A stretch of DNA of 64,000 bases from Rhizophagus irregularis (taxonomy: Eukaryota > Glomeromycota > Glomeromycetes > Glomerales > Glomeraceae), in the NCBI RefSeq assembly GCF_026210795.1, contig NC_089433.1:2567001-2631000 (forward strand). Direction: 5' to 3'. Within the stretch, counting starts at the first letter, position 1; every line of letters begins with the position of its first letter. The position numbers were made by a program, and so were the translations under genes. Positions 1,511 to 64,000 of the stretch are shown here, in pieces. The notes below the pieces were generated by a model. The model was not told the DNA's origin, ran no database searches, and saw only the letters and a program-made list of their open reading frames with translations.

Positions 1511-2299
1511 TATGATAAATAAATCCAAAATCTATAAAAAAAAATGCTTTTTTAAAGATTTATTTAAAAAAAAATTAAAAATATAGTACTTCGTCAGTTT
1601 TGTAGGTTTAAATGCTTTAAAAACCCAGTTTTATTATATTTTAACGAAAAAAATAAACTAACTTTTGGTAAAGATCCAGGTTAAACGGCAAAAGTTATAT
1701 TAAAATTTTTTTAACGAGGTCGGAAGAACGGTCAATAAGTTCCTATTTTGCTTTTGGTTTAAAGCGTTTCATTATATAAATGTGGTGTTACCTTTACCCG
1801 CATTTTTTCAATTTTTGCCGAAATTTAGCCGGCATTATCAATTTGGCCAGAATTAACGATAATTTCGGCCAAAATCACATTTTGAAGATCGGCAATTTTA
1901 ATCCAATAAAATTAATTTTGCCGATTTTGAAAACTATACATGCGATATTTACCCAAAGACGATGCTGCACCATAATTTTTATTAGGGCAAGTATATTGAA
2001 AAAATTTTGCCCTTAAATTTTATCATATTTCCCCTGACTGTTATATAGGTAAGGTCCCAAAAATTTTTTTTATTAGAAGCTCTAAGCATAGGTTTTTACT
2101 ATGATCGCATACAGATCTTTTGCACTTTATGCAATCTCCTATCGCCAAGCACTGGTCAAAATCAAAACTTTTGACCGTTAAGAGCTTTCGGCATAATTTT
2201 GCCGATTAGTCATATGATTCATCACATTTTTTGACCAATGGCAAAAATTGGTAAAATCAATGAAAAAAAATTGACCAATAACTTTTTGGTCGATATTTT
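1511..2299. other. Intergenic, no gene seen
   Basis: No convincing reading frame. The stretch around 1795-1935 is rich in words such as GGCCAGAATTAA and GCCGAAAT and their complements. Similar words recur at 6893, 10620, 37800, 38890 and 46795, so I take it as terminal sequence of old inverted-repeat elements. Diverged inverted similarity (TTGCCAAT/ATTGGCAA, GGTAAAATCA) links 2110-2280 with 4080-4260, on either side of the mini-intron array, and could be the ends of one element. Confidence 0.35.
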
Positions 2300-2563
2300 G
2301 TAATTATGTATCACGTGCATTACGCAATACTACTATATATTAACTTTATTTAAACTTTTTTTTTCTCACACTTTCGTCTCCCCTTTTCACTCACTTTACT
2401 TTTCCACACACTTCTTCGTCACCCTTTCGTCTTTCCTCTTTCTATTCACTCTTTTGTCTCCCTTTCCCTCTCACTTTTTCGTCTTTCCCTTTCCCCTTTC
2501 TTTCGTCCATTCTCTCTTCCTTCTTTTTAGGTGACGCCTCGGCTCTTTGGATACGGTATTTCA
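2300..2563 (+). promoter_or_regulatory. Putative promoter and pyrimidine leader of mini-intron array 1
   Basis: A CACGTG word lies near 2310 and TATATATT near 2334. They are followed by about 170 bases of almost pure C/T on the + strand (CTTTCGTC, CCCTTTC repeats) up to a splice-acceptor-like TTTTTAG at 2523-2530 and a 33-nt first exon. The arms of the palindromic element at 54.6-60.2 kb have the same order: TATA-like and CACGTG words, C/T-rich leader, GTAAGT. Conserved order supports a transcribed unit; the start site itself is a guess. Confidence 0.35.
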
Positions 2564-3960
2564 GTAAGTTTTTAATTTTTTTTATTTCCCTTGTTTTCGC
2601 CTTAATAAACTAATTTCAAATTTTTTTTTTTAGTTATTCAGCTTTTAGACGCGTGGGTACTTTGGTAGGAGAGTTAGATTTTTTTAAAAATTTTATTTAA
2701 CGAAATATTTACTAACATTTTCGTTCTTTTTTTTGTAGGTTCAAGACGCCCTCGAAGTATAATAGATATTAGGGTTTAGGGCATGAATTAGTCGATAGTA
2801 AGTTTCGAAGTTGAGTTAATTTCGAAACTTTAAAAGAAATGATTTACTAATCATTTCTTTCTTCTTTTTGTAGGCCTTCACTTTGGGCTGATGGATCGGA
2901 TAAGTTTTGAAATATTTCGAAACTTTTTGAGATTTTTTTTTATAAAAGAATCGGTTTGCTAACCGTTTCTTTATTTTTTTTGTAGGTTCTTCTTCGTACT
3001 ATTATTGAGAAATAGACGTGTAAGTTTCGATGTGTATTTCAAAACTTTATTTTTTATTATTATTAAATAAACGGACTAACCGTTTTCTTTATTTTTTTTT
3101 TGTAGGTTTCCATTAACGAATTGGGGTAAGGGGGGTAAGTTTTGAATATATTTCGAAATTTTGTGATTTTTTTTTATTGAAGAAACATTAAACTAATTGT
3201 TTCTTCTTTTTTTTTATAGATTTCCCCCTTCGGACTTTATTGGATGGGTGGGTAAGTTTCGAATTTTTCAAAACTTCAAGTTTTTATTAAAGAAACGAAC
3301 TAACCGTTTCTTTTTTTTATTTGTAGGTTTTCATTAACGAATTGGAGATAAGTTTTGATATTTCGAAACTTTATTTTTTTTTATCGAAGAAACATTAAAC
3401 TAATTGTTTCTTCTTTTTTTTGTAGATTTCCATCTTCAGACTTTTTATTGGATGGGTAAGTTTTGAATTTTTTGAAACTTCATTTTTTATTATTATTAAA
3501 GAAACAAACTAACCGTTTCTTTTTTTTTGTAGGTTTCCATTATCGATTTGGGAGTAAGTTTCGAATATATTTCAAAACTTTGTGATTTTTTTTTATCGAA
3601 GAAACATTAAACTAATTGTTTCTTCTTTTTTTTGTAGATTTCCCCCTTCGGACTTTATTGGATTGTGTAAGTTTCGAATTTTTCGAAACTTCAGTTTTTA
3701 TTATTATTAAAGAAACGAACTTACCGTTTCTTTACTTTTTTTTGTAGGTTTCCTCTTCGGATTTTATCAGATCGGGTAAGTTTCTTTTGAAACTTCAATT
3801 TTTTTATTTAAAAAATAGGTTACTAACCGTTTTCTCCTTTTTTTGTAGGTTTTCTACGGATTTTTATCAGATTAGATGAGGATGATGGGTGGATGGTGGA
3901 TGGTGGATGGTGTATATAGATGATAGATAGCTATATATTAATTTAATATGTAATTTTTAA
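2564..3960 (+). ncRNA. Array of about 12 structured mini-introns and micro-exons (locus 1)
   Basis: Introns called from donor and acceptor words: 2564-2633, 2665-2738, 2798-2873, 2900-2985, 3020-3105, 3135-3219, 3252-3326, 3348-3425, 3456-3532, 3554-3637, 3667-3747, 3776-3848 (70-86 nt). Exons between them are 21-59 nt, and from 3106 they alternate between two types (TTTCCATTAACGAATTGG and TTTCCCCCTTCGGACTTT) with a dimer period near 210 bp. Most introns start GTAAGTTTCGAA with a downstream TTCGAAACTT, forming a hairpin at the donor. Most then carry a second hairpin such as GAAACG/CGTTTC with ACTAAC in the loop, followed by a T-run and GTAG. Two units (2900 and 3348) have ATAAGT instead of GTAAGT. 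I found no open frame through the joined exons, so I call it non-coding. The 3' part has a short GGATGGT tandem repeat (3888-3912) and AATAAA-like words. Confidence 0.6.
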
Positions 3961-4559
3961 TAAAACGAATTAATAAAATTTAATTAATAAATTATTATAA
4001 AATTAAAATCAGTAATCAGTTAAATGTACAAAAATCGTTAATAAATTATTAGGTTTATTAACAATCGTCAATTTGATTTTACCGATTTGTTGCCAATTTT
4101 ACTGATCGATTTGTTGACAAGTGGCAGGCATTACGGTGCAAATCGTTTATAAAATTAGTTGCCAATTTTTTTGGTACTGATCGGCTAAGGTCAGACCAAA
4201 TTTTGTCCAACATTCGGCAATTTAAAATTTTGCCGAAATGGACTATTCCGACCAGTGAAAGCGTGCTGGGATTAGACGCTTGCCCTTCTTCAGTAGATTT
4301 ATCTATTTGGTCTTTTTTATATTCCTTCAAATCTATGTCACTATCTAATACTTTGTTATTTTCCTTCCAGTTGAATATCACGTGGTCTCCTCTACTTCCT
4401 TCTTGGCCTTTACGCTTCCTACTACCGAAAGACTTAGTTCTTAAAAGCTGAAAATCTTGGAAAAAGATTAATCTTTTCAACCTAGCCCAATTGGTGTCTT
4501 CATATGGTACTATTTTATTGCCATGGTGACAACTTTAACTGTTTGGACGAATTAATTTT

Positions 4560-27745: not shown

Positions 27746-28673
27746 TGGACATAATGATCTTCAGAAAAAGTTCATCTTTACAATTTTATTTAATAAAATA
27801 TTATTATATATCAGGAAATTAAATTAGTAAGTCAATAACATTAAAGCAAATCTGCATAGGCAATTTTTTCCGGTGTCAACCAAAATCTCAACATCCATTT
27901 TCCCGACAGGACGTTTGCTCACACATTGGGCTCATGATTTTAACATGTGTATGCTTCATATGATGTGGTGTGTATATTAAAGAAATTTTATTTGATTTTT
28001 TGTGTAATTCTGAATGAATAAATTATTATGGTCAAAAAAATAACAGTGAATCAGAAAAGCATTTAAAGTTTTTTATCCAATGACTACGTATGGATCCTCG
28101 TAATACCAAACATATCTTAGAGCATTCTCTTTATTATATAGCCTATAAATTTGCATGTTATCAAGGTTAGTTAAAAAATTGTTATTACTTGATTTCAGGA
28201 ATCGGTTACTTATAACCCCTACTGTATTATTTAAGTTTTTTTTAAAAATATCTTTTTCCATTATTAGATCTTCAAAAATTTAGGAATTCCAAATTGCCTT
28301 CAACATATATGTTATGTAACTTTCTTAAAAAAAAATTATAAGGAATAATGTTAAATTTGCGCAATATAAATAATGTATACTAAGGTTAAAAAAGAAAAGC
28401 GTTCTAAACATCAGTTAATTCAATTTTATGCGCATAAAGATCAATCCCATTAAGTTATACAATCACCTGATTACTGTCATCAAATTATTGTGCCGATCAC
28501 AGAATATTCTGTCGACATTCTCTGAACAAAAAAGATAAGATCATCGCCACCCACTTTTGGTAATTCCGGCGTATAAAAAAACTACTAGCTTTTCTGGGAT
28601 CTTGCCATTCAAATCGACTATAAATATACTATATTTGTCGCTCGTTTTAATGCTAAAAGTCTTCAATAATTTG
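27746..28673. other. Upstream region of the WC-2-like gene
   Basis: No supported gene. A 62-codon minus frame at 28073-28261 is open but not recognisable. The composition becomes less AT-rich from about 28430 and may include promoter and 5' UTR of the WC-2-like gene. GATC and CGATC words are frequent there. Confidence 0.4.
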
Positions 28674-30203
28674 ATGGATGATTTTAATCCAAATACACCA
28701 GAATACCAACGACTTTTGATGGACCGGAAAATCCTGAGCGAAGGTTATCCTGCTGCTGCCGCAGCCGCCAACCTTGGATCTTCAAGGAGTGTAGTTGGAG
28801 TTGGAGGTAGCGGAAATGCTATTGTTAGTTCTTCTACCTCCGTTGTTCCTTCAGGGTCTAACGCTGTTGCTACCACTAGCGGTAGTAGTGCACCGACGAA
28901 TATGACAGAGTTTACAAAGAGAAAGAATTGGTCACAACGGATAATTGAAGAGCTAAAAGATTTTTTGCATGTTATTTCCCCAACAGGGAAGCTCATGTAT
29001 TGTTCACCTTCTTCAACCGAGCTGGTCGGTTATACTCCCGAAGAATTAGTGAATCGCACTATAACAGACTTTATCCATGTCGATGACGTCGATATGTTTC
29101 TTAGAGATTTCGGGTTGGCCATACAAAATAAAACTAGTTTCACTCTTTATTATCGATTTCGCAAGAAAGATGATAAATATATAATTCTTGAGGTTAATGG
29201 ACATCCTTACTTTGGTGAAAATAACACTACTGGTAATTGTAAATGCTTTTTCAGTATGGGTAGAACTTACCCATCAAAAACAACGGCAATGTTAGATTCA
29301 TTTTTGGAATTGAAAGTCGAAAATGAAAATCTGCGTCGTCAACTTCGCGAGTTAATTGGACCATCGGAAACTCCAGCTGAGGCTAGCGGCAGCGGCAGTG
29401 TCAGTACAGTTAACACCACTACTTCTACTACCGGAGGGTCAACTTCTATCCCTGAAGGCCGTTCTGTGGAAAATCTACTTCATGATACAAGTAATCCGTT
29501 AGAATTATTGACCGGTTTACGATACCAGGAGGGTGAGCGTGCCAGAGGAATTTCCACTGGCTCTAATAACCCAACTTTACTGAACGTAAGTTTAATGGAT
29601 GTAGATATGGCATCATCTCTAGCAACGCCGTCTTCAAGAGACGACAACCTTTTATCTACGCAAATCTCCGAACCTGCTCCCCAACCTTCATCGACTACCA
29701 CAACTTCTCCATCGAAACCTCGAAAGAAGGTTTGTTATCTTATCAAGTGATGAGCTTTTTTACATCTTTTGAATTCTTCATTTATTTCTTTAATTTTAGA
29801 AAAAACCTAAAGTCGAAGAAGAAGAATATGTCTGTACGGATTGTGGTACTGTAGAATCACCTGAATGGAGAAAAGGTCCACAAGGACCAAAGACGTATGT
29901 GATAATACTTATTTTATTTAATACTTTTTATTGTTGGAATTTTAAATTTGTTTTATAAAAACATTACTAATTTTTATTGCAAAAAAAATTGCAAATAATG
30001 TGTGACATCGTTTTTGTATATCCTTCGCAAAATCTGCATATTGCAATAATAATTATTGCAAAATGTCATTTTAAAGGTTATGTAATGCATGTGGACTTAG
30101 GTGGGCTAAAAAAGCAAAAAGACAAGCTAGTAGTGGCGGTAATGGAGGAAGCTCAACTCAACCTCCTCCACCGCCAGGTATCGATACCGGAGGTGGTGAA
30201 TAA
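28674..30203 (+). CDS. wc-2: White collar 2-like PAS/GATA transcription factor
   Basis: Exons 28674-29729, 29800-29894 and 30077-30203; phases agree and give 425 aa. A PAS domain spans about residues 92-200 ([31 protein letters not shown]). A short coiled coil follows (about 208-228, [16 protein letters not shown]), then a Ser/Thr-rich linker. The GATA zinc finger is C-x2-C-x18-C-x2-C (CTDC at 364-367, CNAC at 386-389) followed by GLRWAKK, as in fungal WC-2. In other fungi WC-2 pairs with the photoreceptor WC-1 to bind GATA-containing light-response promoters; that role here is by family. The finger is split by the second intron. An upstream in-frame ATG at 28650 would add eight residues; I prefer 28674. 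The first donor is an unusual GTTTGT. Ala and Gly/Ser runs lie at residues 27-75. Confidence 0.85.
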
Positions 30204-39048: not shown

Positions 39049-42000
39049 TTATTTGGTTCTTGCTCTAACACCTTTCTTTTTAAGTTCACAACTACGGGTA
39101 TTATGTCCGTTACCTTTACAATAACTACATATGTACTTAGTTTGACGAATAGGAATTTCAGGTTGTAATTCGCTTCTAGATTGCTTGTTTGGCGCTTTAA
39201 CATTCAATCTACATAATAATTAATTGATTACTTAAGTTCAATAAATTAATACTTATTAGATAAGTTTTTACTTACTTCATCATATCTTGTCTATTCTTAT
39301 TATTATTGTATTTAATAGTAGTGTTTTTCAACGCGTTCTTTACACGCTTCTTTAGAGCACCTTTTGTACGCGCCTGATGGGGGTTGCTAATATTTGGAAG
39401 ATTTTCTTTAAACCCAATTGTACATCCCTGCTGCTTATCACAAATTTCTCTTTCTTTTTTTCTTATCCAGCTTTGCAAAATCTCATTTATTTCGTTTTCA
39501 CAACCCAATTCAAGAGACATTCCAATTGCTTTTTTTGCATACCCAAAACCCTCATTATATTTAGCTTTATGAGACAGATTCTGCTTCACAGTTTCTGAAA
39601 ATAGTTGCATATGACGAATTTCATTTAGTATATCAAAATTCACCCTAATTTGGTGTTCATATACAAGTTTGTCATCATCTGGCGCATTTTTTTTGCTGCA
39701 AATTGCGATTGCAAGTTCTTCTTGAGTGCTAGAAAAAATATCATTATACCATCGAGCTGGAATGAGTCCAATATGGAACATAGCCATATCCGAATTAAAC
39801 ATCACTGAAAAGAAGTGACGGCAAACAAGCCCTCTTATTACGAGCCACATGCATGTACACAAATGATTAGCATTACCATATAATACCACGAAATGTTCTT
39901 TATTTTTTTCGATAGTTGTTACACTCCAAACTTCTTGAATAACAGTATGGCCAAGATATAAAATTAAGGAACGTAAGTTTGACAGTTTTGATTCATAATC
40001 ATCTTCAGCAAACTTAACTTTGCTATCTTTCTGTTTCATTCTACTTTTCTCAACTCCTTCATTGTCAAATCGTCCTTGTTCTTGCTCTTTATCATCAGAG
40101 CGTTTCCATTCATCATCATCACATCGTACATATTCATTATCGTCAAATTGTTTCTGATTAGACTGTTTCCATTCATTATCATATTGATCCCGCTCTTCTT
40201 CATAAGATTGATCCCATTTTTCATCGTCAGATTGATCCCATTCTTTATCATCAGATTGATCCCGTTCTTCTTCATCATATTGATCCTGCTCTTCTTCATC
40301 AGATTGATCCCGTTTTTCATCGTCAGATTGATCCCGTTCTTCATCATCAGATTGATCCCGTTCTTCATCAAATTGTTCCCATTCTTTTTCGTCAGATTGT
40401 TCTTGTTCTTTTTCTTTAGTTTGTTCCCGTTCCTCTTCTTCATATCGTTCCCGTTTTTTACCTTTAGATCGTTCATTATATTCTTGATTTTCGTTTCGAC
40501 TAGATGTACTATTTGTTTTTTCATCAAAATCATAAGCCTAAACGAAATGAATAATAGATAAGTATGAAGTATTAATGTAATTAGAAGTAATGATTAGTTA
40601 GGTTTTAGTGTTTTGTAAATAAAATCGTAAATAAAGAAAAATCGCAAGCTTAAAAATCAATAAATTAATTTATTTTGTATGTTATAGACTTGATGGCTTG
40701 CATATCCAAAAAACAATAATAAATTAATTTCTTGACTTCATACCTTATGTTCAAGTAAAAGTTCCCAGTTCTCAATTTTTTTCACACGGTAAAGTAAGCT
40801 TTCATTCATCTGGTGACGTTGCATTTTTAAAACATGTGGCGTAAGATATTTTTTGATGATACTATCAACTCGCTTGAAATATCTTTCAATAATATTAGGT
40901 AAACCAACTCTTGGATTTTGATTAATTTGTTCTTCCAGCCGCTCAAATTTTTCTTCCTTATCAAGCTGTAATTGAATTTGAGTATCTAGTTCGTATAATG
41001 TTGTGGATCTTCCAACGGATTTTTTAATTAATGCATTGTAACTTTCGACACGTTGCGTCGATTGTACACCTGCATTAAATGATCGATGTGTGAAACATAA
41101 GGCCCAACCAGTCACATCAGTTCCTAATGCACGTTCAAGATATTTCTGTGCTTCTGGATAGTTTGTGAGAAGCTCATGCCACCGTTTTTGAAATTCTTCC
41201 TCAGAGAAGCTGTTTCGGCATTTATTCCATTCTTTTATAAAATCATTATATTTTTTATGAAGCTTCCCTTTTAAATTCTTCTCAAGATTTTTTCGTAAAT
41301 GCCAAATGCAATAGTTATATTTTGTTGATGGAAGAGTCTCATGAATAGCGGCAACCATACCAGCATCTGCATCTGTAAACAATACTCTTGGTGCAAGACC
41401 ATTTGTGGCACATAAAAGACATTCAAGAATCCACTGATAAGTATCCTTAGTTTCATCTGAAACTACAGCCGTAGCAGCCATTCTTGATCTTGCATGATTA
41501 TCAATAACAATTGTAAGGGACAAGTACATTCGATACTTGTTTGTCTGAGATGTATTATCGTTTATCGCAACATCATGAAACTTTTGCCATAATTCAATTT
41601 GGGATGGCCTCATCCAGAAAAGACCGGTAAGATGATTATCATCACCCTCTACTCTTGCTTCTACAAACTAGCCATTATCTTCACGTTGCATTTTCATTAA
41701 CTTATCATATGTTTCAGCAGCATCAGTTTTTATTAGTTTTTGATCACATCAAAAAAGACAAATTGCATTATATACATTTTTGGGGTGAATTGTTGTATCA
41801 GGAAACCGTTTTTGAAGCATGCGAATTATTGGACCTGCTCCACAGCCAATATTAACAAGAAATTCTATTTCTTCAAGCATTTCTGGGTTGAGACAGCGAT
41901 CTAATGTTATGTTTCTATTCCCGTTTCCATATAGTGGGTGATTGTGTTCTTTGTGTATAGAAGTAATTCGTATAATACCTTTATTATAGTTAAGATTAAC

Positions 42001-47026: not shown

Positions 47027-47380
47027 AATAATATTAACAGAAAAATTTTGATAATTGCATTCTATTGGATGGATATCGTTTATGATAATTTGTTTGTATA
47101 GTATATAAACTTAATATTAATAAAGTACACTGGCTACTTGAACAAAAGTAGCGGAAATTAACATTTTATTAATTACTTTAAAATTTATATAATAATAATA
47201 TCCGAAATTTTAATATGTAATAATGTAAACAATACAGAATATATATTTAAAATTTTATTGTTCAACTATATTAATTAAAGAAAACTCAGAAAAAAATTTT
47301 AACAATTATCTATATATTATATAATAAAAATAAACAAATAGTCTGATACTGCCAGTTTATTTGGAATTATATATAATAAT

Positions 47381-47602
47381 TAAGGTTGCTTGCCAAAACC
47401 TTCTTAATAACTGCCGAAACCTATACGGAAAATGCCAAAACTATATTAAATCATATTAAAAATCCTGCCGAAACTTTGCCGAAATGCCAAAACCCCTATT
47501 TGCCGAAACTGCCAAAACTCTGCCAAAACTATAGTAAACATATAGTAAAATCTTGCCGAAATTTATCGCAGGATTTTGGAGAGGTTTCGGCAAGCAACCT
47601 TA
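47381..47602. mobile_element. TAAGGTTGCTTG MITE, copy 1
   Basis: 222 bp with ends TAAGGTTGCTTG / CAAGCAACCTTA and perfect 8-bp flanks ATAATAAT (47373-47380, 47603-47610). Rich in TGCCGAAAC words. Relatives at 53146 and 54661. Confidence 0.85.
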
Positions 47603-47754
47603 ATAATAATAATAACAGAAATTTTAATATGTGGCAGTACAGGATCTTAATTAGTATATATACATCTAATTTCTTATTTCTAGTTGTTTTTATATGGATT
47701 ATAAAAAAAATTGAGAAAAAATTAAATTTTAAAAACAATAATAGTACTCTTTAC

Positions 47755-48974
47755 TAGAGCTCTGCAACCTGACCTGACAGATCAGGTGACCTGACGGGTT
47801 GATCTGAAATATTCAGGTCAGGTCATCAAATTCATGACCTGATACGAGTCAGGTCAGTGCTAGTCGGTACCTGACTTGACCCATTGACTTGACATATATT
47901 TGGATCAAATAAATTAAAAACACTAAAACTAATAGTTTCAGCATTTTTACATGTAAAATCAAAAGGAAAAATGCTGAAACTAATGATTCTGATGTTTTTA
48001 CATGTAAAATTGAAAAAAAACACTGAAACTAATAGTTTCGGCATTTTTACATGTAAAATAAAAATGAAAAATACCAGAACTAATGATTCCAGCATTTTTA
48101 CATGTAAATTGAAAAAAAAATGCTGAAACTATCAGTTTTGGCATTTTTACATGTAAAATCAAAAAGAAAATCGCTGGAACTAATGATTTCAGCATTTTTA
48201 CATGTAAAATTGAAAAAAATGCTGAAACTAATAGTTTCAGCATTTTTACATGTAAAATCAAAATGAAAAATGCTGGAACTAATGATTCCAGCATTTTTAC
48301 ATATAAATACAAAAAAAAATGCCAAAACTAATAGTTTCGGCATTTTTATATGTAAAATCAAAATGAAAAATGCCAGAACTAATGATTCTAGCATTTTTAC
48401 ATGTAAAATCAAAATAAAAAATGCCAGAACTAATGATTCTGGCATTTTTACATGTAAAATCAAAAAAAATGCTGAAACTATCAGTTTTAGCATTTTTACA
48501 TGTAAAATCAATATGAAAAATGCCAGAACTAATGATTCCGACGTTTTTACATATAAAATTGAAAAAAAATGAAAAATGCTGGAACTAATGATTCCAGCAT
48601 TTTTGCATTTAAGATCAAAAAAAATGCCAAAAAAAATAGTTTCAGCATTTTTATATATAAAAATAAAAGTAAAATGCCAGAACCTGATATTTTTTCAATA
48701 AAAATTAAAAAAAATCTTTTTTTTTAATTAAAAATGTTGAACCTGACGTTTTTTGTATAATTAATAAAAAAAACGTTACAAAACATTTTTTTAATTGAAA
48801 TATTTAATAATAAAACTTCAGGTAACTTGAATTACCCAAAGTGACCTGAATACTTTTAGGTCAAATGGGTCAGGTTGGGTCAGAACAGTTTACCCGACCC
48901 AACCTGACCTAAAAAAAAATTTCAGTTCAGGTTAATCAGGTAACCTAACTTGACCTGACCTGTGCAGAGCTCTA
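47755..48974. mobile_element. 1220-bp hAT-type element without transposase
   Basis: Ends TAGAGCTCTGCA in both orientations; flanks CTCTTTAC (47747-47754) and CTTTTTAC (48975-48982), an 8-bp duplication with one C/T change. Subterminal ACCTGACCTGAC repeats occupy about 100 bp at both ends. The core is a hairpin minisatellite. It sits within the left end of the GATATC-word MITE. Confidence 0.85.
47930..48670. repeat. Hairpin minisatellite of about 52-60 bp units
   Basis: About a dozen units of CATTTTTACATGTAAAAT + spacer + AATGCTGAAACTAATAGTTT. TTTTACATGTAAAA is palindromic, and GAAACTAATAGTTTC forms a second stem. Two variants alternate (GAAACTAATAGTTTC and AGAACTAATGATTC). Long frames over it are artefacts. 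Confidence 0.8.
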
Positions 48975-49320
48975 CTTTTTACAGAAACTTTAAGTTTTCA
49001 AGTGATATACTTTCGATATCATTTCGATATTATTTTGATATCATTTCAATATTGATTTAATATCAATACGATATCAAAATAAAATATTATCACTTTAATA
49101 TCAAAATGATATTGAAATAGTATCAAAATGATATCAAAATAATAATAGAAATGACATTGAAATAACATCTTTAAGTTTAATTTAAAGATGTCATTTTGAT
49201 ATCATTTTAATTATCATTTCGATATTATTTCAATATCGATTTAATATTGAAATAATACCATTAAGATAAACTTGACAATATCGATTCTATATTGATTAAA
49301 AATGTTAAGTTTCTGTAAAG
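48975..49320. mobile_element. GATATC-word MITE, copy 2 (inverted relative to copy 1)
   Basis: The right end in complement, CTTTACAGAAACTTAACA, matches the left end of the copy at 24622, and ATTGTCAAGTTTATCTTAA-like sequence follows in both. The left end is interrupted by the hAT element. Confidence 0.7.
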
Positions 49321-49502
49321 CTGTTGCTAATTACTAAATTACTTTTTTTAATTAATATAGTTATAGAACTATAAAATTTTGAATATATATTCTTTATTAT
49401 CTATATTATTATATATTAAAATTTCACGTATTATTAATATGTATATTTTTGATTAATTAATAAAATATGATGAATTCCTGCTACTTTTGTCCAAGTAGTG
49501 TA

Positions 49503-54904: not shown

Positions 54905-55530
54905 CTGACACTATCAAAAAACGTGTATAAAAACGGTAGATTAATGTTAAACAATGCGTATCATGTGTTAGTTTATTTATATTGTACAATATAATTTTTT
55001 ATTAATAAACTCGATAAACAATGTGTATATTAACGCGAAAATAATGTATTGTTTTATTATTTTATTAACACTAATTCATTATATTACAAATTTGTATTAT
55101 TTAAATATTCTAATTTCTAATTAACTAAACTAATGTCTAATGTAAAAAAATCACCTAAAAAAAGAAAGTAACGTAAGCTTTCTTCGATAGCTGCGCCTAA
55201 AATCACAAATACGCGTAGAAAATATCTATGACCTTCAGTTTAACGAAGATCGCCTTCCATAATCCAAGTATAAGTTTTTACGTTCATCAATGATAAATTT
55301 GTATGCTGAATAGCTATACATTTTGCGTATCTCCAACAACTTTGTATCGCCCGGACATTTTTCCATCCACTTTAGTTCTCTATTCATTTTTTTCTCTTTA
55401 ACTCATTTCACACACTCCGAAATTGGTCCATTTTTGCTAAATCACTAAAACAAAAAATTTGAAAAATAAGTTTTGCAACGAAAGTTGTTGCGAAACCTGC
55501 CGTTCCTCAAAATCAAACATCAGACGGTAC

Positions 55531-56738
55531 CTATAAAATAAGAGAAAGGAAATGTTAGTAAAAATTTCCTAAAAAAATTCCGAAATGAATAAAACTTACC
55601 CATTACAAATTCCCAGTGATTTGTACTCCTGGAACCTAAAAGAATGAAAAGGAAACGTTAGAAAATGTTTCTATTACAAAAATATATACATGATAAGCTT
55701 CACAACATTTGCGAAACTTACCCATAATCATCCAGAATCCAAAACACTCCGAAGTCTAAATAAAAGAAAAAGAGGAAATGTTAGTAAACATTTCCTAATT
55801 AAAAAAATAAAAAAACAACGGTAGTTTCGTAACAAACGTACGAAACTTACCGTTTTCCGAATTTCTAAACTCCTATAACTGAACCTACAAAAAGAAATAA
55901 ACGTTTAGTTAGAACGTTCCTAATAAAAAATAAAAAAATATTAATTTTAAAAGTTTTGAAGCGAAATGCTTCGAAACTTACCATTTCGTTTTCCTCCAAA
56001 ATCGAATATGCCGAAGGTTCATTTTTCTCGTCACATCTTTTATTCCAAATATTTATTCTACATTGATCATAATAGAAATACCAAAGATCATCAATTAAAT
56101 TTTTAACTTCTATTTTCGATGAATCTTGCTAAATCTGTCTCTACAAAAAAAAATTATAGGAAACATTAATAACGTTTCCTAAAAAAATTAATTTAAAAAA
56201 GTTTCGAGGTGAACGCCTAGAAACTTACCCTTTCTTTTCCAAGTCAAATACGCCAAAAAGACCTAAAAAAAGAAAGATTAGGAAGCGTTAGAAACGTTTC
56301 CTAAAAAAAAAAAAATATTAAAAGTTTCAAGGCGAAACGTCTTGAAACTTACCATTTCATTTTCAAAATCAAATACGCAAAGTCTTACAAAAAAATTATA
56401 GGAAACGTTAGTTTCCTAAATTTTTTTAAAAAAAAATAAAATTAAAAAATGTTTTGAAGCCTTCGCTTCGAAACTTACCATTTGGAAAATGGGAGAACGA
56501 GAGAGAGCGAAAAATCAAGTAAATTTACCACTCAGTGACTTATTTTTAATTAACCTTTAGTGACTTAAAAAGTTTTTATATCACAAAAGTCGGTACAATT
56601 AATGATTTAAACTTGTACCTATGCCATGATTGGTGTAAAAGAAACATAAAGATAAGGGAAGGGGAAACGAAAGGGAGAAAAAAGAAATTTAAAAAAAAAA
56701 GTTTAAAAAAGTTTCGAAGCAAACGTTTCGAAACTTAC
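55531..56738 (-). ncRNA. Mini-intron array 2 (left arm)
   Basis: On the - strand, introns at 56478-56384, 56352-56263, 56228-56141, 55981-55885, 55850-55756, 55721-55636 and 55599-55531 (69-97 nt). The exons between them are 31, 34, 159, 34, 34 and 36 nt. An extra donor lies at 56738. Donors are GTAAGTTT with the matching AAACTT some 15-20 nt later. Branch hairpins read AGGAAACG..CTAACG..TTCCT, AGGAAATG..ACTAACATTTCCT and the like, with CTAAC at the loop edge; acceptors are TTTTTTTAG or GTAG. Several exons end AAATG directly before the donor and share TATTTGATTTTGAAAATG-like text. No through frame found. The direction is outward from the palindrome centre. Confidence 0.6.
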
Positions 56739-56739
56739 C

Positions 56740-56990
56740 ATTTGGGAAATGGGAGAATGAAAAGGGAAGGGGATAACGAAAAGGGAAGGATAACGAAAGA
56801 GAAAGAGAAGGGGAGAACGAAAAGGGAAAGGGGAGAAAGGGCGAAAAAAAAAATTAAGCTTTGCTAAAAAAAGCTTAAATCTTTTTTTTCGCTATACCGC
56901 AGCACCGCAGCAGGCGCAGCGGTAGTTATTAATTTTATTATCACGTGATACACGTGATATGTAGATTTATATAAATAGGGGCTTTTCCCG
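56740..56990 (-). promoter_or_regulatory. Putative promoter and C/T leader of array 2
   Basis: Reading leftwards: TATTTATATAAAT (about 56980-56968), two CACGTG words (56942-56958), a GCAGC block, then C/T-rich leader to the donor at 56738. The mirrored right arm at 58380-58733 has the same order. A second leader copy ends at 56478. Confidence 0.35.
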
Positions 56991-57661
56991 AAATTTTTTT
57001 TATATTTTTTTCTAATGTATGTATATATATGCTTTATATATACATATATAATTAATATATATCTATTAACTTTAATACTTTACGAAAAAAGCCCCTCTAT
57101 AAATAGGTAGAGCATAAAGCCTATAGGAGAGCTATTGCGCTCCCTCCGCCTGTTTTATAGCGATAAAAAGAGGGAGTCTTCAGTAAGTAAGCGTTTGATG
57201 TGTATTTGTACACATTAATTATTAATATTGAACAACACAATAAACTACACCTAGTATTAAAAAATATGTATAATGTTAAAAAATACTAATAAAAATGAGT
57301 GTTTTTCTATACTAAATTGCAGTATAACAAACTTTGTATTTATATGTACTGCTTAATACCATTTAATATATGTTAAACTAAATTCTATGTTGAAAAATAT
57401 GTATACTGTTAATAAATGGCAATAACAACTAGTGTATTTTTATATTAAATTTTAATATTGCAACATTTTGTGTTTATTTACATTAATTAATGGCATTAAA
57501 CTATATTGTATATCATATTAAACTATACTTAACATCAAACAACATAAAAAAACTTGTATAATTATACGTATATAACAGCATTCAGTATTAATCATTACAG
57601 TATACAGTATTAAACAATAGGATATATCATATTAAACAACCCCTTAATGTTAATTAACACT

Positions 57662-57698
57662 ATAATTATGTAAAGCAACACTTTTAAAACTTGCTGAT
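57662..57698. other. Spacer between the two palindrome arms
   Basis: The 43 bases 57658-57700 are an exact reverse complement of 54507-54549, which lies just outside the left end of copy 1. The spacer therefore looks like a captured, inverted piece of the original flank. Confidence 0.8.
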
Positions 57699-58379
57699 GT
57701 GTTAATTAACATTAAGGAGTTGTTTAATACGATATATCCTATTGTTTAATACTGTATACTGTAATGATTAACACTAAATGCTGTTATATACGTATAATTT
57801 TACAAGTTTTTTTATGTTGTTTGATAACAAGTATAATTCAATATGATATGCAATGTAGTTTAATGCCATCAATCAATGTAAACAAACACAAAATGTTGTT
57901 TTATTAAAATTTAGTATAAAAATACACTAGCTGTTATTTCTATTTATTAATACTATACATATTTTTCAACACATAATATTGATAGTTTAACATATTGTTA
58001 AATGCCAATAAACAATGTATATAAATATGAAATTTGTTAACTGCAATTTAGTATGGAAATACACTCATTTTTATTAGTGTTTTTTAATATTATACATATT
58101 TTTTAATATTAGGTGTAATTTAATATGTATATTGTATTGTTTAATATTAATAATTAATGTGTATAAATACATATTAAACCTTATTACTGAAGACTCCATA
58201 CTTTTTATAAACACTGCAGGAAGGAGCAGCAATAGCTCCTATAGGTACTTTATGACCTCTACCTGTTTATAGAAAAGGGTTATAAAGTTAATAGATATAT
58301 ATACGTATATATAAGCACATATATACATCTATTAAAAATTAAAATTATAAAAAAAAAATTTTAAAGTTCGAGGAAAACC

Positions 58380-58732
58380 CTATTTATATATTTTTATATA
58401 TTCCGTATATCACGTGATACTTAACCGCAGCTTCAGCTGCTTTTGTTGCAGTATAGAGAAAAAAAAATTAAGCTTTTTATAGCAAAGCTTATTTTTTTTT
58501 CTCTTTCACGGCTTTTCTTTCCCCTTCCTTCACCCTTTCCCTTCTCCTTTTGTTCTCCCATTTTCCTTTTGTTTATTTATTTAAAAAATTCATTAAAAAA
58601 AATAATTCTTAATTATTATATACTATTATTTTATTTATTATGTTTTATTTAATTTTTTTATTTAATTCCCTTTTCGTTTTCCTATTTCGTTTCTCCTTTC
58701 CCATTCTTTTTCACTCTCCCCTTTTCCAAATG
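58380..58732 (+). promoter_or_regulatory. Putative promoter and C/T leader of array 3
   Basis: TATTTATATA (58381), TATCACGTGATA (58407), GCAGCTTCAGCTGC block, then C/T-rich leader (CTTTCCC, CCCTTCC) ending CCAAATG before the donor at 58733. Confidence 0.35.
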
Positions 58733-60212
58733 GTAAGTTTTGAAGTGAAAGTTTCAACACTTTTTTTTAAAAAATTTTTTTTTTAATTAAGAAACATTAC
58801 TAACATTTTTTTTTATATAGGACTAGGATTCACCTGTTAACTACGTTAACAGTTAATATTTAAAACTTAAAAACATATATAAAGTAAAATTTTAATTATA
58901 TATATATAATACCTGCGCCTTGCCATTTTAGTTTCACATACAGGTGGTTCTTGTTTTTGCGCTCCTTTATTCTCTTTTTTCGTTCTTTAACTTCGTTTTA
59001 ACTTTTTTTTTCTCTTAGGTCCAAGCACTTCAGCATTTTGGCTCTTCAGTTTTTGGCTCTTTGGTTCTAAGGTGCATCTTTTTTTCATTTTTTTTTGTTC
59101 GTTCTGACTATTCTTTCCTCTCAGACATGACGCACTTCAATAACAGATGGTTCAAATGCAAGTACATAAGGATAACGGGGAACTATAATGTAAAAAATTT
59201 CCAATTAATATAACTCATTTAACATCTCAAAAAAAGTAAGAAAAGCAAAATTATATAGTTTACCAAGGGATTTTATTTTTGTTTTTTATGTTTTGCTCAA
59301 TAGGTCCCAAACTTCGATATTTCAGTTTCAAGGTTCAGCTACTTTTTTTCATTTTTTTTTCTCTTTTTGTTTTTTTTTTCGTTCGTTATATTGTTCTAAC
59401 TCTTCTTTCCTCTTAGATTCCAGCTCTTCGGCATTTCGGCTCTTTGTTCTATTGTTCTAACTCTTCTTTTCTTTTAGGTCCTGGCTTTTTGGCAACTTCA
59501 GCACTTTAACATTTCGGTTCTGTTCTTTTTTTGTTCTTTAACTTTGTGCTAACTTCATTTCCTTGATAGGACCTGGTTCTTTGGCAATTTCGGCACTTTG
59601 GTATTTTGGTTCCATATAGATGGGTTCTTTTTTCGTTCCTTTGTTCTCTTTTTTTCTTTCTTTAACTTTGTTCTACATAACTTTTTTTTTTTTTGCTTCT
59701 TTTTTTTTTGCTTTTTTTTTAATTACGGTAATCGCGTATGAAGCGTGCCTATCATGTAAAAAATCAAGATTTATACTTTGCATTACACACTGCAGTTACA
59801 CAATTGTAAATTGTTATTTATGTGGTTAGTTTAAACGTAACGCCCACGTGATTGCAGTATTTTTAAATATTAGATTTTGGCTCGATTTCAGTTCAGAATA
59901 TTGAAAATGGTAAATTTCGATTCGCTTTGAAACTTAAAAATTATTTTTTTTTTTAGTTTAGGAAACTAATGTTTCCTATAATTTTTTTTTTAGAACTCAG
60001 CAGTATTTGATTTGAAAACTGAAATGGTAAGTTTTGAGGTGTTTACCTCAAAACTTTTAATTATTTTTTTTTTAATTTTTAGAAATGTTTCTAACGTTTC
60101 CTATATCTATTTTTTTAGGACTTTTGGCATTTTCAACTTGTGAAATGAAAGGGTAAGTTTCGAGAGCGTTCACCTCGAAACATTTTTAAAATTTTTTTAA
60201 TTTTTTTTAGGA
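58733..60212 (+). ncRNA. Mini-intron array 3 (right arm), interrupted and truncated
   Basis: Introns 58733-58820, 59910-59993 (donor GTAAAT), 60027-60118, and a last donor at 60153 without its acceptor. Exons 59994-60026 and 60119-60152 are 33 and 34 nt. Hairpins again bracket donor and branch site (AGGAAACTAATGTTTCCT, AGAAATGTTTCTAACGTTTC). The exon after 58820 is split by the 1-kb insertion. Confidence 0.55.
58828..59870. mobile_element. 1-kb insertion with repeated acceptor-like exons
   Basis: Ends as for the element at 46739. Inside, four or five units combine a C/T-rich stretch, TTAG, and text such as GGCAATTTCGGCACTTTGG, CTTCGGCATTTCGGCTCTTT and CTTCAGCATTTTGGCTCTT (59018-59615). These resemble the first exon of locus 1 (CCTCGGCTCTTTGG at 2537), so this may be a further, more distant mini-exon array. 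No protein gene; the 69-codon frame at 59620 is T-run sequence. Confidence 0.5.
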
Positions 60213-61093: not shown

Positions 61094-64000
61094 TAGAGGT
61101 GCAGCCTTATCCCTCCCCATGGGTTATAACATTGTGTCATGTGTCATATGACATGCGTCTGGATAACGCATGTTACAACTCGTGACGTTTGACATAATGC
61201 TAACCAATGCCGTAATTAATGACATTTGACGCAAAGTGTGACGTATGACGCATTGTATTTGACGTAACTTCGATAATAAATTGTATCTTATCTCTGCGAA
61301 AAATACTTTTTTATTAAAAAATTTTTTAAATGCATGCTTGTGGAGTACAATGCGTTATGCTGATCCCATTTTTATAATAAATCATAATAAATTTGATAAA
61401 CGCGAAATTTACTTCTTTCTTTTGTTTTACGTGTCACGACCTACAACTAATTATGACAGAAACAGTTAGAACTGATTTACAAAAATGCAGTAATGACACT
61501 TTATCCGAAACTCCTCTTTCACGAAAGAAAGCTAATAAAGGAGGCCCAAAATTTGATGAAGTATGGCAATATTTTACTCAAGGAGAAGAATTAAATCCAG
61601 GTCATTATAAAGCTACATGTTATCATTGCAAAGAGGAGTGGTCAAAGGGAAGGCCAGTAGCTTTAAAAGCTCACTTGGCAAATGAATGTTTGGCATGTCC
61701 TGAAGATATTAACAAATATTGGCGTGATAAACTTACTGAAAATACGGTGAATTACACCCGAAAGATGCATTTTTCACAAGATCAAACCCAAATTCCAAAG
61801 CCTCAGTACAAACAAACCAAAATTGTAAACCATTTTAGTTCAGATGAGCCACTTCCTCCTGAAATAAATAACCGTATTGATTGTTCTTTATTAAAGGCAT
61901 GGGTGATGGCAGGGATTCCTTTTGAAGTTGTTGAGAATCCCTTTGTTTTGGATTTATTTAAAAATTTAAATCCAGCATATATCCCTCCATCTCGAACTAC
62001 TTTGTCTGGTAGACTTTTAAATGAAGAAATTTCGCGTGTTAATAAAAAGGTTACATCTGAATTGGAGATAGCAGATAGTTTAACTTTAAGTAAGAAATTT
62101 TAATTTTTAAATTATGTTAATTATTAATTAGTTATTTTAATTTATTAATTCTCATCATTTATTTTATAATTAGCATTGGATGGTTGGACATCCAAACGAA
62201 ATGAATCACTTTACAATTATGTCATAACAACTTCCGATAGAAAAGAATATTTAGTTGCTTTACGCAATTATTCTATGGAATCACATACAGGAGAATTTCT
62301 TGCTTCAGAAATATCAGATATTGTAGAGAAAATTGGTTTAGACAAATTTACAGCTGATGTCACTGACAATGCTTCCAATTGTCGAGTTGCTAGAAGAATA
62401 ATAGAAGAAAAATATGGTCATATTTGGGATATACGATGTGCAGCTCATGCTATTAACTTGATAGCAGCTGATTTAGTAAAACTTAATGATATAAAGGAAT
62501 TTATCTCAAATTGTGGGATGATTACAGGGTTTTTTAATAACTCACATCAAGGTTCTGCAATTTTAGCTCAAGGTTTAAAAGATATGAAGATTAATATTGA
62601 GAGATTACAAATATGGTGTAAGACTAGATGGGGTTCATTGTATATGACAGCAGATTCAATTTTACGTGCGCGTCCTGTTTTTGACTGGGTGAGATAATTT
62701 TTTTGATTGTTTATTAATATTCTTTATTTTATATAATAATTCTAACAATTAAATACTATAGATTTTATTAGAACATAATGGTATTGTTACAAATTCAAAC
62801 GTTTATCTCTTAATTCAAGATGAAGAATTTTTTACAAATTGTCGTCATATTCGTTCAATTTGGGCTCCCATCAAGGAATGCATTAATATCCTTGAAGCAA
62901 AATCAGCTTCTTTAGCTGATTGTTTCGTGCAAATGATCAAATTAGCAATTGCTATATTTCGTCTCCCTTCATCAAATCCCTTTAAAGCTTCAGCAATTCA
63001 GATTTTTAATCATCGTTATCTTGAATTTCAGCATCCTGCTTACTTATTATGTTATTTTCTTCACCCTTATTATCGAGGTATTTACTATTTTTCAGTTAAT
63101 TATTAAAATCATTATTGCTAAAAATTATTTTGATTTTTTAGGTCTAGGACTTAATGATGAAGGATTTAGAAATGCAGCAATAACTGCCACAACTCTCTGG
63201 CAAAATTTAGGATATTCTGAACAAGAATGTAGAGAACTTCTTACTCAATTCCGAAAATATGATCAAAAACTTAAACCTTATGATTTATCTTATGATAAAA
63301 ATATGGATACACCCGAATTATGGTGGGGTTCTATAAGAAGTAAACCATATTATTTACGAGATCTTGCACTTCGTTTATTTGGTATTGCTGTTTCACAAGC
63401 AGGATGTGAACAAAATTTTTCTGTACTTAAATGGATTATTGGAGATAGACGCACAAGGCTTGATGTTCAAAAGCTCGAAGGTATTTCTAAAATTCGTTCT
63501 TATTACTTAGCAAGCATTAAAAATGAATTATCATATTATGGAAAGCATTTGGATGAAGCAGAATTAAGAGAAGTTGCCAATACCTCTGCAGTTGGTGAAA
63601 TTATTGCTTTAGATGATAATGATAATGATACTAATTATCTGCTATTAGAGGAAGATCAGGAAAGAGAAGGTACACAAGAACGTACTACTTTAATATTGGA
63701 GGACATTATTGATTTTACACAACCAATTTTTGAAAATGCAGAAAATGTGGATAATAATACTAATGAAGAAATCAATATAGATAGAAATATGGATTTTAGT
63801 CCTATTGATTTAGTTAACCAAATTTTAGAAAACTAATTTGTTAGTTATTAATTTGTTGTATTAAATTCAAATTTATTGAATAAACTCATAAATCATATGT
63901 CAAATTTGGCAATTTATTATATTTTAAGTTACGGCAATATGGTATGCGTCTTAAGTTATGGCATACGTCATTATGTCAAATTTACTCTTGAGTTACATGC
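61094..64000 (+). mobile_element. hAT element, left end and transposase; right end outside the window
   Basis: Left end TAGAGGTGCAGCC at 61094, preceded by GATGTAAC (61086-61093), the presumed 8-bp target copy. Subterminal ATGCGTC / GACGCAT and TGACGTATGACG words occur at 61140-61265 and again near 63940-63975 in opposite sense, so the right end should be close to or just beyond 64000. Confidence 0.8.
61453..63836 (+). CDS. hAT transposase with BED zinc finger
   Basis: Exons 61453-62089, 62174-62688, 62762-63077 and 63142-63836 join in frame without a stop. A BED-type zinc finger lies near the start (FDEVWQYF, CYHC, LKAHLANEC). The hAT catalytic region follows (LDGWTS, FTADVTDNASNC, RCAAHAINL, CKTRWGS). 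The C-terminal hAT dimerisation block is PELWWGSIRSKPYYLRDLAL, with FSVLKWIIGDRRTRL and an acidic tail. It should cut and paste the surrounding element by binding its ends. The ATG at 61453 is preferred because an earlier in-frame ATG (61393) adds an unrelated hydrophobic stretch. Introns are 73-84 nt (the second and third donors are GTGAGA and GTATTT). The frame is intact, so the element may be active or recently active. Confidence 0.85.

Follow-up and report, generated by a model that had tools for sequence, protein, structure and literature searches.

Classical CACTA transposons have terminal inverted repeats (TIRs) that begin CACTR, and a wider CACWR rule also exists. The En/Spm tnpA gene, with about 11 exons, shows that an intron-rich transcription unit can lie inside a CACTA transposon; unlike the array described here, it codes for a protein and has longer exons. 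CMC and Plavaka elements have been reported in Rhizophagus irregularis, where about two-thirds of transposable elements are described as unclassified (PMC11075540). Tandem introns with structured content are described for the SNORD115/SNORD116 clusters of SNHG14, where 29 and 48 tandem introns each hold a snoRNA (PMC11608373). These clusters resemble the present locus in their tandem exon-intron repeats, one structured RNA per intron and a non-coding host transcript, but there the snoRNA lies inside the intron and outside any transposon, whereas here the splice signals themselves are in hairpins. The first-pass annotation of this DNA, in saying that it knew of no previously described element composed of arrayed structured introns, was thus too strong. 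Fungal introner-like elements and symmetrical stwintrons are likewise proliferated introns with inverted-repeat structure, described as single gene insertions with symmetry along the intron (PMC8469720), in contrast to the two separate hairpins, the arrays and the location inside TIR elements found here. Judged by titles and the opening lines of abstracts, the snoRNA clusters come closest to intron arrays. Nothing of this kind appeared in broader literature searches, and a search for introners in Glomeromycota or Rhizophagus found no paper, most subscription journals lying outside these searches.

The window, that is, the whole 64,000-nucleotide stretch of R. irregularis DNA that was analysed, holds 12 mini-exon/mini-intron units at 2564-3848 on the plus strand (Table 1). 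The introns are 68-86 nt as parsed and the exons 21-59 nt, which agrees with the units first proposed, apart from intron 2, whose start more probably lies at 2665 (GTAGGA), where the match to model R2 begins; this gives it 74 nt and the preceding exon 31 nt. U2-type signals (donor, branch word, T-run and AG) are present in the window introns. A donor hairpin occurs in 10 of the 12 (introns 3-12), being absent by eye from introns 1 and 2, and a second hairpin at the branch word occurs in most, by eye in introns 2-12; automatic stem choice, applied to introns 3-12 only, settled on different stems in introns 5, 9 and 12. The first-pass annotation had placed both the donor and the branch site in hairpins, and this stands for the stems themselves, but CTAAC/CTAAT is only partly exposed in the loop, its AAC half being stem-paired in many introns and above all in other arrays. 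To our knowledge, SNHG14 introns carry no hairpin on the donor and branch site. No intron nested inside the splice site of another (stwintron) was seen by eye in the window array.

Table 1. Coordinates of the arrays and associated features (positions in the window)
Feature	Position	Strand	Remarks
TIR element holding array	2150..4257	+	CACTGGTCAAAATC ... TATTCCGACCAGTG; flanks AAG / AAA, a one-mismatch 3-bp target duplication
CACGTG in TATCACGTGCATTACG	2312..2317	+	upstream module common to other arrays
Pyrimidine-rich leader	2364..2530	+	5' of first exon
Intron 1	2564..2633	+	donor stem and branch stem both absent by eye
Intron 2	2665..2738	+	donor GTAGGA; branch stem by eye; first parse began 2671
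Exon 3	2739..2797	+	first part is remnant of antisense open frame, 335 codons in paralog L055
Intron 3	2798..2873	+	donor and branch stems
Intron 4	2900..2985	+	donor stem (ATAAGT) and branch stem
Intron 5	3020..3105	+	donor stem, one mismatch; branch stem by eye
Intron 6	3135..3219	+	donor and branch stems
Intron 7	3252..3326	+	donor stem, one mismatch; branch stem
Intron 8	3348..3425	+	donor stem (ATAAGT) and branch stem
Intron 9	3456..3532	+	donor stem; branch stem by eye
Intron 10	3554..3637	+	donor stem, one mismatch; branch stem
Intron 11	3667..3747	+	donor and branch stems; branch word CTTAC
Intron 12	3776..3848	+	short donor stem AAGTTTC/GAAACTT; branch stem by eye
Last exon	3849..3964	+	AATAAA word at 3959-3964
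Second array	55445..56738	-	CACGTG/pyrimidine leader module
Third array	58733..60210	+	points away from second array

The genome (146,748,485 bases in 32 contigs) contains 241 matches to a perfect donor hairpin pattern and none to the reversed pattern; a looser donor stem followed by CTAAC/CTAAT gave 353 matches against none reversed. Among the matches listed from four pattern searches, hairpin-intron places form at least 141 clusters. Viral contigs scanned for the hairpin gave no match. Twenty loci (L009-L028) were sampled from contigs 1-4, each seeded on a perfect hairpin, and 19 of them have at least two R2 matches on the array strand (E up to 0.1); the remaining one, L021, has one R2 match and one intron found by regex only. 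Hairpin introns of the sampled loci thus come in arrays, with 12 introns parsed in the window, 14 in L027, 15 in L017 and fewer in some. At window 55000-60200, two arrays diverge from an inverted repeat whose midpoint is near 57.65 kb, and both have CACGTG and a pyrimidine leader; no paired TIRs were found for these 55-60 kb arrays.

BLAST comparisons among the loci revealed sharp common ends, which are TIRs with 3-bp target duplications and fall into two families. The larger, with CACAGGTCGAA ends, comprises L016, L017, L022, L023, L024 and L027, and its TIR, CACAGGTC, keeps CAC with A as the fourth base (CACAG, not CACTR). The other, with CACTGGTC ends that fit the CACTR start, comprises L020, L028 and the window element, which is 2.1 kb long, has the ends CACTGGTC and GACCAGTG, and shows homology to L010 and to L028 that breaks off at one common 3' end. 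The window element has a paralog, L010, whose end words are altered, and single end words occur in L013 (one CACTGGTC) and L014 (one GACCAGTG). Eight of the nine elements in which both ends were found are flanked by an exact 3-bp target duplication (L016 ATA, L017 TAA, L022 TAT, L023 TAG, L024 TTT, L027 AGT, L020 TCT and L028 CTA), the window copy being off by one base. No TIR pair with duplication was found around the array in 12 of the 20 sampled pieces (L009-L015, L018, L019, L021, L025 and L026). Genome-wide there are 61 copies of the CACAGG left end, and among the matches listed at least 33 of these have an array match 0.3-6.5 kb inside on the same strand, none has one on the opposite strand, and 2 have one upstream, while for 28 of the 61 no array match is listed; on contigs 1-7, with matches listed to 1.35 Mb of contig 7, the count is 18 of 24.

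No transposase was seen in the two of nine elements examined for open reading frames, the longest being at most 98 aa in L017 and at most 103 aa inside the L028 element. The genome has 155 matches to Transposase_21 (PF02992), not tied to these TIRs, and their presence favours a transposon reading. For the two families, it is well supported by these ends that the arrays belong to CACTA-like transposons, and the elements look like non-autonomous ones carrying arrays of consensus, structured introns. They share with non-autonomous CACTA/CMC/EnSpm (Plavaka-type) transposons the CACTG...CAGTG ends, the 3-bp target duplication, the lack of a visible transposase in the two copies examined and an apparent capture of foreign sequence; they differ in an interior made of an array of structured, spliceosomal-type introns. 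The earlier reading missed this context, in which the arrays are, as judged from the element ends, internal parts of TIR transposons.

Other features of the window were also recorded. A Mutator-type transposase (MULE domain; 40738-41613, minus strand) and a DUF659 fragment (62176-62697) mark the window as rich in transposons. A PAS-domain protein is encoded at 28557-29750, which we take to be a possible white-collar-type light sensor. The sole new TIR pair from BLAST at the remaining loci belongs to an element at 47128-49500 on the minus strand that is CACTA-like by its ends (CACTACTTGG...CCAGTG). It contains a tandem run of roughly twelve hairpins (e.g., AAATGCTGGAATCATTAGTTCCAGCATTT), with both arms varying and no splice signals. 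In their best-fit stems, read on the minus strand, wobble pairs outnumber non-pairs by 20 to 6, which favours pairs. R2 matches at 48157-48845 were rejected as introns, since they belong to this different hairpin array, which lacks GTAAGT.

Pairing in the intron stems was assessed in two alignments. A1, with 60 introns picked from 91 distinct stem-filtered introns and so leaning towards stems, has 89.9% of cells paired and a covariation score of 0.223 against 0.134±0.006 in shuffles (reached in 0 of 500), which drops to 0.06-0.08 when the partners are slid; two of the five covariation measures beat the shuffles weakly (both-side changes, reached in 38 of 500, and further pair types, in 31 of 500). 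A2, which takes the top 150 among 276 model matches and is fitted to the model, has both-side changes in 24 of 24 pairs. A less biased test of the donor stem used the looser pattern, which constrains just eight bases to either side of the donor loop. In 77 distinct hairpins from the 100 matches listed out of 353, inner donor-stem pairing beyond the pattern averaged 3.97 pairs against 0.71 when shuffled (largest 1.14), and stem position 11 was paired in all 77 (AT 45, CG 19, TA 13; 47% expected), as it was in 106 of 112 donor hairpins of the loci under study. Covariation beyond simple duplication, by which the first-pass proposal of paired stems could be checked, was therefore found for both stems in A1 and A2, and for the donor stem also at position 11.

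Predicted folding gave a similar picture in 93 array introns chosen by splice signals without regard to stems, although their loci had been seeded by perfect hairpins, which biases the comparison upward: the first 36 nt have a mean folding z of -2.6 (52/93 below -2) against +0.36 (1/23) in 23 chaperonin introns from elsewhere in this genome, and the branch region -2.69 (61/93) against 0.03 (1/23). Because signal words partly defined the choice of array introns, only the folding result counts in this comparison. Read directly, the last six of the 15 parsed introns of L017 lack the AAGTTTCG stem, and the exon end pairs there with the intron start across the junction (e.g., ACATTTCGAAG|GTATACTTCGAAATGT), so that these introns rebuild the donor hairpin from other material; the ninth intron has neither kind of donor hairpin.

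In layout the arrays resemble transcription units. Of 23 arrays, 12 have CACGTG within the 1 kb upstream (4 have it within 1 kb downstream, 3 inside), mostly followed by a pyrimidine-rich leader; it is absent upstream in the other 11, L020 and L028 included. The module of CACGTG and leader is common to the window element, L010 and the CACAGG family and is absent in L020 and L028. The transcript had been called apparently non-coding, and indeed splicing yields no long reading frame beyond the pyrimidine leader: exon lengths are out of phase, coding is not evident in the exons, and the longest open stretch after splicing is contained in the leader or extends from it in the window array and L027, and amounts to 76 codons in L017. 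Exon 3 is extended by about 0.9 kb in paralogs L055-L057. The insert in L055 (308-1315, minus strand) is a 335-codon antisense open frame with no Pfam match, similar inserts occur in L056 and L057, and the window exon 3 keeps just the tail, so that the exons look like captured or drifting filler. Many exons of L017 and L027, read directly, start with GTTCCGG or ATTCCGG and end with GAACCG or similar, and joined exons would therefore form the palindrome GAACCGGTTC.

A search for spliced copies with a junction pattern gave no match in the genome. The spliced window query had 44 genome matches, 43 of which lie inside one exon, give or take six bases, which implies that exon limits are kept among copies; the 44th (query 228-267, 85%) is window exon 8 with the adjoining intron tail. 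Absent spliced copies say little about splicing, as DNA transposons do not pass through RNA. From their sequence, the arrays are likely to be spliced.

We read the array, with a probability of roughly 0.6, as a transcription unit that forms the interior of a non-autonomous DNA transposon of CACTA/CMC-like type. At the sequence level this reading draws on TIRs that start CAC[T/A]GGTC, a single array orientation relative to the ends, and CACGTG with a leader in about half of the arrays. The unit would be transcribed and the spliceosome would remove each intron by intron definition, since exon definition would need exons longer than the 20-40 nt seen here. Local hairpins may fold each donor and branch site onto its own intron, so that near-identical units avoid mispairing or skipping. 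Selection would have acted on a few active lineages, which could explain why stem types differ between subfamilies, with inserted copies presumably decaying nearly neutrally. A possible benefit is that a heavily spliced transcript may resemble a host gene to silencing.

Whether the stems are selected as RNA structures, as the first-pass annotation had held of both, is a narrower matter. CpG decay yields two single-hit states, U.G, which pairs in RNA, and C.A, which is unpaired, and at stem position 9 genome-wide these are equally frequent (56 vs 57, two of the 57 rows being one hairpin). The window family has G.U 26 times and A.C 20 times, and among distinct local hairpins position 9 has 17 wobbles against 12 A.C and position 10 has 15 against 5. 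Raw divergence in the window family alignment is 0.119 in exons, 0.033 in the donor hexamer, 0.046 in the branch stem, 0.076 in the donor stem and 0.13 in the acceptor triplet. Conservation was dropped as a sign of selection, since exon and intron divergence are close once sorted by base and CpG context (GC sites 0.155 vs 0.124; CpG-type 0.218 vs 0.234; A/T sites 0.027 vs 0.008, the last reflecting T-runs); donor hexamers are somewhat better kept (GC sites 0.079; A/T sites 0 of 524). Individual copies thus decay nearly neutrally, which fits copies dying after insertion with any selection confined to active lineages and also fits a DNA-level palindrome origin. The U.G and C.A balance and this decay weigh against selection of the hairpins as RNA, to which we give, if splicing is granted, roughly even odds.

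The hairpins could instead be DNA-level palindromes in transposon tandem repeats, arising via template switching or serving as protein-binding sites, with splice-like words inherited from one ancestral intron and not necessarily used. We regard this as possible but doubtful. Template switching is described as able to create paired changes in a single event (PMC8794818); the single-hit states are strand-symmetric, copies decay near-neutrally, and the idea gains weight from the 47128-49500 element, a CACTA-like element with varying internal hairpins and no GTAAGT. Against it, the stems hold constant positions relative to donor and branch word, the six L017 introns re-form their donor hairpin using exon sequence, the strand of the arrays does not vary relative to the element ends, and local wobble pairs exceed A.C at position 10, less so at position 9.

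A more specific extension of the transposon reading is that structured-intron arrays constitute an RNA-level strategy, either a decoy that loads spliceosomes in competition with weaker introns of the fungus, or a mark left by splicing through which transposon transcripts escape silencing by small RNAs; both hairpins would be selected for tuning how each unit is spliced. On the sequence features above, we consider this unlikely.

A host gene for intron-derived small RNAs, snoRNA-host or mirtron-like, is improbable. The layout does recall SNHG14 (PMC11608373), and the introns, about 70-110 nt, have two hairpins. Against this, no known snoRNA or other Rfam family was present at gathering score in the 9 sources searched, so a known RNA family was rejected; at E up to 1, window 2140-4270 matched just two bacterial sRNAs, at E 0.098 and 0.13 and with scores well short of gathering. 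Stems of 7-14 bp, as here, are also short for Dicer.

It is slightly less probable still that the intron itself is the mobile unit, spreading into genes as an introner-like element does. Stable predicted structures or inverted repeats are also described for fungal introner-like elements (PMC8469720), but 19 of the 20 seed loci have multiple R2 matches on the array strand (L021 having one and one regex-only), target duplications flank whole elements, and folding of this kind is on average absent from the 23 chaperonin introns, of which one falls below z -2 at each of the two places. Within the 20 sampled loci and the 23 chaperonin introns, no similar introns dispersed among unrelated genes were found.

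A protein-coding gene with mini-exons would share the spliced layout but is refuted as it stands, and coding exons were rejected, given exon lengths out of phase, longest spliced frames tied to the leader (window, L027) or of 76 codons (L017), and part of exon 3 lying antisense to an open frame.

If the arrays are spliced, these elements would amount to DNA transposons that carry splicing itself as cargo. The hundreds of natural donor- and branch-hairpin variants would then form a test of RNA structure tuning intron removal, and the arrays would test both the shielding of transposons from silencing by introns and the possibility that covariation arises in the absence of selection on RNA.
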